Shown here: positions 60,855 through 63,514 of the stretch, piece by piece
Numbering within the stretch: position 1 is the first letter of the stretch
Layout: each line of letters begins with the position of its first letter
DNA from: Solimonas flava DSM 18980
GTDB lineage: Bacteria; Pseudomonadota; Gammaproteobacteria; Nevskiales; Nevskiaceae
DNA: 64,000 nt
Assembly: GCF_000426685.1 (NCBI RefSeq)
Contig: NZ_AUFV01000009.1
Location: 62,001 to 126,000, forward strand
Reading direction: 5' to 3'
Translations under genes and position numbers: made by a program
The notes under the pieces: model-generated
Told to the model about the DNA's origin: nothing
The model's input: only the letters and a program-made list of their open reading frames with translations
The model's database searches: none

Positions 60855-61733
<879 letters not shown>

Positions 61734-61756
61734 CTCAGTAACCTCCCAATGCCATC

Positions 61757-61783
61757 TTAGCACTCGTATTTATAGAGTGCTAA
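61757..61783 (-). promoter_or_regulatory. Perfect CIRCE element (HrcA operator) upstream of rpoH
   Basis: TTAGCACTC (61757-61765), nine bases, GAGTGCTAA (61775-61783): an exact match to the HrcA operator consensus. It ends 23 bases before the rpoH start and overlaps the candidate -10 described separately. The palindrome can be read on either strand; its effect should be on rpoH. Confidence 0.92.
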
Positions 61784-61799
61784 AAGCGGCGAAAGTTCC
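61771..61799 (-). promoter_or_regulatory. Candidate sigma-E promoter of rpoH, overlapping CIRCE
   Basis: On the minus strand GGAACTT (61799-61793) is followed after 16 bases by TCTATA (61776-61771), close to the RpoE consensus GGAACTT-N15/17-TCTGA. E. coli rpoH also has a sigma-E promoter. TATAAA in the same place could alternatively be read by sigma-70, but no sigma-70 -35 stands at the right distance. Confidence 0.55.
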
Positions 61800-61836
61800 C
61801 GGCCCCCTTGCTAAGTCCTTGATCTGCCGGGATCGA

Positions 61837-61850
61837 TCCCCATATGGGGA
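61837..61850. repeat. 14-bp perfect palindrome between rpoH and ftsX
   Basis: TCCCCATATGGGGA lies between the ftsX stop and the rpoH promoter. It may be an operator or part of a weak ftsX terminator; no T run follows. Confidence 0.5.
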
Positions 61851-61854
61851 CGTT

Positions 61855-62805
61855 TCAGCGCGGTTCAATGAGGGCCAGGCGCCGGCCGACCGTGACGAAC
61901 GCTCCGGCCCAGCCGAGCACCACGCCGGCGCCCAGCAGGGCCAGTCCGTCGGTCCACGGCAGGCCGGCGAGCCGGAACTGGCTGCCGTAGGCCTGGGCGA
62001 GCTGCTCGGCGGGTGCACCGAGGGCCTGCACGCCGGCGGCGACCAGGATCCAGGCCAGCAGGCCGCCGAGCAGGCCGTGCCAGAAGCCGGCGTAGAGGAA
62101 CGGCCGGCGGATGAAGCTGTCCGGCGCCCCGATCAGCTTCATCACCTCGACCTCTTCGCGGCGCGCCTCGATGTCGAGGCGGATGGTGTTGCCGATGATG
62201 ACCATGACGGCGACGCCGAGCAGGATCGCGACGATACCGACCGAGCGCTGGGCGATGTCGAGCAGCGCGTACAGGCGCTCCAGCCATTTCTGGTCGAGCT
62301 TGGCGAGGTCGACTTCGGGCAGGCGCCCGAGCCGCGCCGCCAGTTCCTCGACGCCGGCCTTGCCGAGCTTGCGGTTCGGCGTGACGGCGATGACCGCCGG
62401 CAGCGGGTTGTCCTGCAGGATCGCCAGGGCGTCGCCGAAGCCGGACTGCGCCTTGAAGTCGGCGAGCGACTGCGCGCGCGAGATGTAGTTCGTCTTGCTG
62501 ACGCCGATTTCGGCGCGCAGTTCCCGGGCCAGTGCCGCGCCGCGTTCCTCGGCCACGCTGTCCTTGAGAAACAGCGAGATCTGCAGCGATTCCTGCCAGC
62601 TGTAGCCGACGCTGGCGAGGTTGCGCGTCAGCACGTAGAGCCCGGCCGGCAGCGCCAGGGCGATGCCGATGACCAGCGCGGTCAGCGCCGCCGCCAGCGG
62701 CGCGCGCGCCAGCTTGCCGAGCGAGAAGAAGAACACGCGCGCGTGTTCCTGCGCCAGGCGCGCGAGCCAGCCCGGGCGTTCGAGTCCGGCTTCAACGAGC
62801 GCCAT
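61855..62805 (-). CDS. ftsX: Cell-division ABC transporter permease FtsX
   Basis: 316 residues with four transmembrane helices (one near 35-58, three in the C-terminal third) and a periplasmic loop that signals to cell-wall hydrolases. The MKLIGAPDSFIRRPFLYAG segment is the coupling helix region of the family. Overlaps ftsE by 14 bases. Confidence 0.94.
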   Translation of the reverse strand: MALVEAGLERPGWLARLAQEHARVFFFSLGKLARAPLAAALTALVIGIALALPAGLYVLTRNLASVGYSWQESLQISLFLKDSVAEERGAALARELRAEIGVSKTNYISRAQSLADFKAQSGFGDALAILQDNPLPAVIAVTPNRKLGKAGVEELAARLGRLPEVDLAKLDQKWLERLYALLDIAQRSVGIVAILLGVAVMVIIGNTIRLDIEARREEVEVMKLIGAPDSFIRRPFLYAGFWHGLLGGLLAWILVAAGVQALGAPAEQLAQAYGSQFRLAGLPWTDGLALLGAGVVLGWAGAFVTVGRRLALIEPR

Positions 62806-63514
62806 GGCGGTCTCCGAGTTGCGAGGCGGCGGTCGGCCGCTTGTCGGTGATCTGCCCGTGTTCGAGGTGGATGATGCGGTGTGGCAATGCCTCGATCAGG
62901 TCGATCGCGTGCGTGGCGATCATCACCGTCACGCCGGCCTCGTTGAAGCGCTGGAAGCCGCGCATCACTTCGAGTGCCATTTCCGGGTCGAGGTTGCCGG
63001 TCGGCTCGTCGGCGAGGATCAGCGCCGGCTTGGTGACGATCGCGCGGGCGATGCCGACGCGCTGCTGCTCGCCGCCGGACAGCGTCAGCGGCAGCGACTT
63101 CTCGCGGTTCAGCAGGCCGACCGCGTCGAGCGCCGCACGCGTGCGGCGGCCGATGTCGGCGTACGCATAGCCACGGATCACCAGCGGCAGCGCCACGTTG
63201 TCGAACACCGTGCGGTCGTAGAGCAGGTTGAAGTTCTGGAAGACCAGGCCGATGTGCTGGCGGTAGGCCGGGATGTGGCGGTTCTTCAGTGCCGACAGGT
63301 TCTGGCCCATGACGACGAGCTGGCCGCGCGTCGGCCGGCACAGCGCTGCGATCAGGCGCAGCAGCGTGCTCTTGCCGGCGCCGCTCGGGCCGGTTACGTA
63401 GACCATCTCGCCCTGCGCAATCGAGAAGCTGACGCCGCTGAGCACGTCCTGGCCGCCGGGGTAGCGGTAGGCGAGCTGGTCGAAGCGGACGATGTCGGAG
63501 GCGGGCGGGCTCAT
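62792..63514 (-). CDS. ftsE: Cell-division ATP-binding protein FtsE
   Basis: 240 residues. Walker A GPSGAGKST, signature LSGGEQQRVGIARA and Walker B LILADEPTGNLD are intact. Works with FtsX to regulate septal peptidoglycan hydrolysis. 49 bases from ftsY. Confidence 0.96.
   Translation of the reverse strand: MSPPASDIVRFDQLAYRYPGGQDVLSGVSFSIAQGEMVYVTGPSGAGKSTLLRLIAALCRPTRGQLVVMGQNLSALKNRHIPAYRQHIGLVFQNFNLLYDRTVFDNVALPLVIRGYAYADIGRRTRAALDAVGLLNREKSLPLTLSGGEQQRVGIARAIVTKPALILADEPTGNLDPEMALEVMRGFQRFNEAGVTVMIATHAIDLIEALPHRIIHLEHGQITDKRPTAASQLGDRHGAR

Follow-up and report, generated by a model that had tools for sequence, protein, structure and literature searches.

A predicted HrcA operator interlocked with a sigma-E-type promoter upstream of rpoH in Solimonas flava and in a minority of related bacteria

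The window analysed here, a 64-kb stretch of the Solimonas flava genome, includes ftsE, ftsX and rpoH, with an inverted repeat of the CIRCE type and a sigma-E-type promoter between the last two genes (Table 1). The product of the gene downstream scores 389 bits against the NCBIfam model TIGR02392 (cut-off 323), and the preliminary description of this DNA, made from its letters alone, was right in naming it rpoH. The CIRCE, TTAGCACTC-N9-GAGTGCTAA, was recovered by pattern search with no mismatches, its arms being read directly on the minus strand at 61783-61775 and 61765-61757. The ATG of rpoH lies at 61733, which leaves a gap of 23 bases to the CIRCE, with the GGGAGG inside it. On the same strand, GGAACTT and TCTATA are separated by 16 bases, so that the arrangement first described, a perfect CIRCE overlapping the -10 of a GGAACTT-N16-TCTATA promoter, can be read from the bases themselves.

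Table 1. Features at the rpoH locus of S. flava (positions within the window)
Feature	Position	Strand	Basis
ftsE	62792..63514	-	
ftsX, gene upstream of rpoH	61855..62805	-	E. coli has the same neighbour
-35 box GGAACTT of the sigma-E-type promoter	61793..61799	-	sequence; register conserved in the window's family (f1)
CIRCE, predicted HrcA operator, perfect 9-9-9 inverted repeat	61757..61783	.	sequence
-10 box TCTATA; TC shared with the left CIRCE arm, which ends there, remaining bases within the CIRCE spacer	61771..61776	-	sequence; spacer base preferences in relatives
Inferred transcript start region, where spacer and right CIRCE arm meet	61762..61767	-	usual distance from -10 to +1
Shine-Dalgarno-like GGGAGG of rpoH	61742..61747	-	sequence
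rpoH, sigma-32, 292 aa	60855..61733	-	NCBIfam TIGR02392

The consensus of sigma-E promoters comprises GGAACTT, 16-17 bases and a TC-type -10 element, and this combination is found at rpoH of S. flava. The earlier naming of the promoter as sigma-E-like holds for the GGAACTT box and for the register; it does not hold for the fifth base of the -10 (TCTAT), which is T where the TCNNA form has A, this form being preferred but not strictly required. The CIRCE lies where such an operator is expected, in the promoter of a heat-shock gene, and binding of HrcA at 61757-61783 is the reading that it predicts. It is the single CIRCE of the window at up to three mismatches, against 0.01 expected from dinucleotide shuffles, while a perfect copy is expected 1.3e-5 times per genome of this size (from base composition, with a G+C content of 0.66 assumed). 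In the whole genome of 4.46 Mb, searched at up to three mismatches with the spacer fixed at nine bases, there are two copies: that of rpoH, with no mismatches, and another with two mismatches, 73 bases upstream of groES (identified by Pfam Cpn10).

The regulators that such an element calls for are encoded in the same genome. A search for hrcA and for other CIRCE copies had been proposed at the outset, and it yielded, besides the groES copy, an hrcA gene scoring 321 bits in a profile search, whose product carries the Pfam HrcA C-terminal and DNA-binding domains above cut-off. The gene behind it is grpE, and no CIRCE occurs upstream of this hrcA-grpE pair in the genome-wide search at up to three mismatches with a 9-base spacer. 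RpoE was identified with 290 bits (cut-off 236), its model giving nine matches in the genome, eight of them below the cut-off, and rpoE is followed by a gene for RseA (Pfam RseA_N above cut-off).

Two known systems bear on this locus. HrcA and CIRCE control groESL and dnaK in Bacillus and in many other bacteria; S. flava has the same operator and repressor, and a groES CIRCE too, but differs in that the second target is rpoH, which encodes the other heat-shock regulator. The sigma-32 circuit, in turn, is taught from E. coli, where the control of rpoH is largely post-transcriptional. Here the likeness lies in a sigma-E-type pair, TGAACTT-N16-TCTGA, between ftsX and rpoH, which we take to be the sigma-E-dependent rpoH promoter P3; unlike S. 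flava, E. coli shows no CIRCE in the ftsX-rpoH stretch at up to three mismatches (by eye) and, as one of 14 control genomes, no match to HrcA.

Conservation was followed in S. flava and 60 relatives of its order, the upstream region of rpoH being readable in 59 of the 61 genomes; the two left out were G042, in which the contig leaves only some 20 bases ahead of rpoH, and G049, with only a weak match that was taken as something other than rpoH. Within the family of the window (f1), a CIRCE with up to four mismatches lies upstream of rpoH in all 37 readable genomes, with perfect arms in 18 (two of them with an 8-base spacer) and one mismatch in 14. Moreover, GGAACTT (up to two mismatches) precedes the CIRCE by 16 bases in 30 of these genomes and by 17 in seven; at up to one mismatch, the box stands at an offset of 16-17 in 33/37, against three matches in total at the 60 other offsets tested. 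The two 8-base spacers belong to G026 (L105) and G015 (L108); the genus that these share also includes G035, whose spacer has nine bases. CIRCE and spacer at rpoH are identical in a MAG titled Nevskiaceae (L006) and the f1 genome G032. Furthermore, second rpoH-like genes occur in four genomes (G010, G030, G019 and G017; L144-L147), 46-57% identical to that of S. flava and with no CIRCE upstream; these paralogs were inspected and excluded from the counts.

The other families of the order (f2 to f6) depart from this arrangement in two ways. In five of their 22 readable genomes, those of f2, f4 and f5, the CIRCE starts 8-15 bases past the TC that belongs to a sigma-E-type box pair separate from it, and in the remaining 17, of f3 and f6, no CIRCE was found upstream of rpoH. 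The promoter-like pair is present in most of these CIRCE-less regions: GGAACTT with up to one mismatch, followed by N15-17-TC, occurs in 12/17, compared with 2.7% of regions shuffled with base content, not dinucleotides, preserved, and the other five, with two mismatches, do not exceed chance (29% of shuffles).

The repressor gene follows a similar distribution. It was found in 45 of the 61 genomes: 36/37 in f1, 1/1 in f2, 3/4 in f3, 3/4 in f4, 1/1 in f5 and 1/14 in f6, the last being a family in which hrcA is missing from 13 of 14 genomes and the operator at rpoH is absent. Exceptions run in both directions. G016 (f1, 79% complete) has the CIRCE at its rpoH promoter and no hrcA was found in it; G052 (f6) has hrcA and no CIRCE at rpoH. 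In f3, three genomes with hrcA (G038, G045 and G048) show no CIRCE genome-wide at up to two mismatches among the matches listed. The coupling of hrcA with the rpoH CIRCE in the order thus appears strong, though not perfect, and loss is the direction of change that we infer.

Beyond the order, a strict composite was searched for, GGAACTT-N9/10-TTRGCACTC-N8/9-GAGTGCTAA, with the reversed pattern as control. In an even draw of the class it occurs in 42/369 genomes (33 of 272 genera), compared with 0/369 for the control, so that the conservation in several genera named beforehand as supporting evidence is found in the family and in the class alike. Thirty of the 42 copies were fetched, that of S. 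flava being among the remaining 12, and all 30 lie upstream of rpoH and on its strand. Composite carriers have hrcA in 41/42 cases (counted by eye from two listings), as against 270/369 genomes overall (Fisher p 2.4e-5, uncorrected for kinship), the exception being G236, a genome 72% complete in which no hrcA was found. In a draw of the phylum the composite occurs in 1/299 genomes, that of S. flava itself; with S. flava set aside, the counts are 0/86 in its class and 0/212 outside it, although the two draws follow different families, so that their composite rates are not comparable. This count does not support a spread of the composite, in its exact form, across the phylum, and the arrangement is clearly a minority one.

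The named rpoH loci examined were the 80 best-scoring of at least 592, a non-random choice, and the closest genes among them are mostly gammaproteobacterial, with a MAG titled Nevskiaceae at 72% identity; a betaproteobacterial origin, which gene order had suggested, was rejected on this ground. A CIRCE at up to two mismatches lies within 250 bases upstream in 38 of these 80, compared with 0/901 control windows. In 18 of the 38, GGAACTT (up to one mismatch) stands at an offset of 16-17, against seven matches over 69 other offsets; of the other 20, 13 are presumably Betaproteobacteria/Burkholderiales, by title or by the genus named in it. Loci of Pseudomonas, Vibrio and Xanthomonas within the best 80 have no CIRCE at up to two mismatches in the 250 bases upstream. 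In addition, a contig titled Verrucomicrobia (L005) carries an rpoH 71% identical to that of S. flava, where GGAACTT again stands in this register ahead of a CIRCE (one mismatch); the contig is probably misassigned.

The bases between the CIRCE arms carry information of their own. In the class, spacer base 3 is A in 38/41 sites, while its mirror position, the palindrome's own control, is A in 14/41, and in groES-type CIRCE spacer base 3 is A in 2/31 sites among the matches listed (Fisher tests were run). These 31 spacers are those of sites with the TTAGCAGCC arm among the matches listed; 19 of them were fetched, and in all 19 the gene that begins there is groES. Within f1, base 2 is A in 31/35 sites and base 3 in 27/35. 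The TC of the CIRCE arm and the spacer preference together spell TCNNA, as in the TGAACTT-N16-TCTGA of E. coli. Since the spacer would be free if only HrcA mattered, these preferences indicate a -10 element placed within the operator.

The groES site of f1 is of another quality. With up to two mismatches and a 9-base spacer, the matches listed include two CIRCE sites in 27/37 genomes of the family, one in seven, none in two and three in one. Among the second sites fetched, S. flava included, groES follows in 19/19 (recognized by the start of its protein); all 19 have the altered arm TTAGCAGCC, which was the selection criterion, and second sites that differ in form, such as those of G037, G039, G043 and G046, were set aside. 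The altered left arm is frequent among the matches listed, as at L002:1501-1527. It makes the groES CIRCE a poorer match than that of rpoH, and it looks as if a weaker site had been deliberately retained. Ahead of the f1 groES CIRCE lies a sigma-32-like promoter, at 28-29 bases in 18/19; at up to two mismatches it is found in 13/19, against 2/950 shuffles. In S. flava, hrcA has ATTGAAA-N14-CCCCATTT just upstream of its start, and a sigma-32-like promoter at up to two mismatches occurs in 5/20 hrcA regions, S. flava included, against 11/1000 shuffles (base content, not dinucleotides, being preserved in both sets of shuffles). Sigma-32 would thus probably make GroE and, less surely, HrcA; with a convincing promoter in only 5/20 genomes, the latter is the weakest step of any feedback. 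Given that CIRCE with a 9-base spacer occurs solely at groES and rpoH in S. flava at up to three mismatches, any effect of HrcA on dnaK would have to pass through sigma-32.

The explanation that we favour, and to which we attach good confidence, is that an HrcA operator and a sigma-E-dependent promoter are interlocked at rpoH, forming a gate switched on by sigma-E and off by HrcA. It is supported by the perfect operator, the sigma-E-type promoter that shares bases with it, the genes for HrcA, RpoE and RseA, and the conserved geometry. While GroE is free, it would keep HrcA active, and active HrcA would cover the -10 and the start region of rpoH, blocking RNA polymerase with sigma-E. On heat or protein misfolding, GroE would be titrated, or HrcA itself would lose its DNA binding, and the block would be lifted, whereupon envelope stress could raise rpoH transcription through RpoE. 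The parts of the literature source consulted for Campylobacter jejuni report both stimulation of HrcA by GroE and loss of HrcA binding on heating (PMC8533110). The resulting sigma-32 would transcribe groES-groEL, and probably hrcA-grpE too, from the sigma-32-like promoters, and the new HrcA and GroE would close rpoH again, which would place sigma-32 under negative feedback at the level of transcription. The layered heat-shock switch suggested in the preliminary description, with sigma-E and HrcA both feeding rpoH, is accordingly well supported at the level of sequence, by the presence of hrcA, rpoE and rseA and by the conservation of the element in many genera. Against the gate stand the T in the -10 of S. 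flava where 38/41 relatives in the class have A, the imperfect pairing of hrcA with the rpoH CIRCE in three f3 genomes, G052, G016 and G236, the finding of the exact composite in S. flava alone within the phylum draw, and the scarcity of convincing sigma-32 promoters at hrcA.

Other readings of the element differ in which part of it they discard. The CIRCE could be a working HrcA operator while a different sigma factor, housekeeping or another of the ECF type, reads the promoter, in which case there would be no envelope-stress input. The -10 region of S. flava (TCTATA), which contains TATAAAT, and the additional, sub-threshold matches to the RpoE model agree with this; yet neither a sigma-70 promoter nor a terminator was found in 61680-62100, the GGAACTT/TC pair persists at 12 of the 17 CIRCE-less rpoH genes of the order at up to one mismatch, and the ftsX-rpoH gap of E. 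coli holds its own pair, all of which makes the reading unlikely. Slightly less probable still is that HrcA at the CIRCE serves mainly as a roadblock to read-through from ftsEX, the overlap with the promoter being secondary: the five f2, f4 and f5 genomes keep a CIRCE that lies past the -10 without overlapping it, as a roadblock would allow, but the register fixed in 37/37 f1 genomes and the -10 preferences of the spacer are things that a roadblock does not need.

That the inverted repeat works in RNA, as a hairpin, a stability element or a thermosensor, rather than as a DNA operator seems very improbable. An RNA role is known for CIRCE in Bacillus, and a hairpin could form from the CIRCE in read-through RNA; against this, the left arm would be missing from a transcript begun at the overlapping promoter, the short leader with the first codons (66 nt) folds no better than shuffles (z +1.5), on which a thermosensor there was rejected, and the composite is found where hrcA is found, with few exceptions. 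A chance occurrence or a dead relic, finally, can be practically dismissed, in view of the chance expectation per genome given above, the retention of the CIRCE throughout f1 and its absence from the control windows of the named loci. The gate driven by sigma-E and closed by HrcA therefore remains the preferred reading, and it is directly testable.

A CIRCE before rpoH is not new as such. For Geobacter sulfurreducens, comparative genomics predicted a perfect CIRCE at -51 of rpoH (Rodionov et al. 2004, PMC545781, Table 8), a likeness to S. flava; the differences are that this is a delta-proteobacterium, that its hrcA-grpE-dnaK-dnaJ is also preceded by CIRCE and that the parts of that article consulted describe no overlap with a sigma-E promoter. 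For the beta-, gamma- and epsilon-proteobacteria, the same parts cite Permina and Gelfand (PMC545781). Among the matches listed in a literature search on HrcA and rpoH, which covered few subscription journals, no CIRCE overlapping a sigma-E promoter of rpoH was found. A CIRCE before rpoH had thus been predicted by 2004, and the interlocked, recurrent form is without a match in the literature searched. The survey of Permina and Gelfand (2003) is the likeliest earlier list of rpoH CIRCE sites in these classes and may report part of this already.

Two textbook heat-shock systems thus appear to be joined in S. flava and in a minority of its relatives, in a manner that is not that of E. coli. If so, a stretch of 43 bases would integrate envelope stress and chaperonin load, and through HrcA sigma-32 would repress its own gene. 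It would also exemplify a layer of transcriptional control whose presence largely follows that of its repressor gene. A wider proposal, which we put forward tentatively and consider somewhat more likely to be wrong than right, is that the HrcA layer on rpoH is old, perhaps ancestral in the Gammaproteobacteria (including the former Betaproteobacteria), and was lost together with hrcA in E. coli-like lineages; where kept, HrcA would be mainly a negative-feedback regulator of sigma-32, with a stronger site at rpoH than at groES. Should HrcA sit on the rpoH promoter in many other groups, the two classical heat-shock systems would be one circuit there.

Finally, in G006, a genome of the same genus, a third and perfect CIRCE (L258:345-371, contig C23) follows a TATAGT box recognized by eye. 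It sits 39 bases before an operon that encodes a Prok-E2_A/ThiF/JAB fusion flanked by two MBL-like proteins and, last, a protein with no Pfam match. Six distant f1 relatives of the first gene of this operon have no nearby CIRCE at up to four mismatches. The operon resembles candidate anti-phage cassettes (PADLOC models E1-E2, JAB and PDC-M48B), and a heat-shock operator on such a defence-like operon would be odd.
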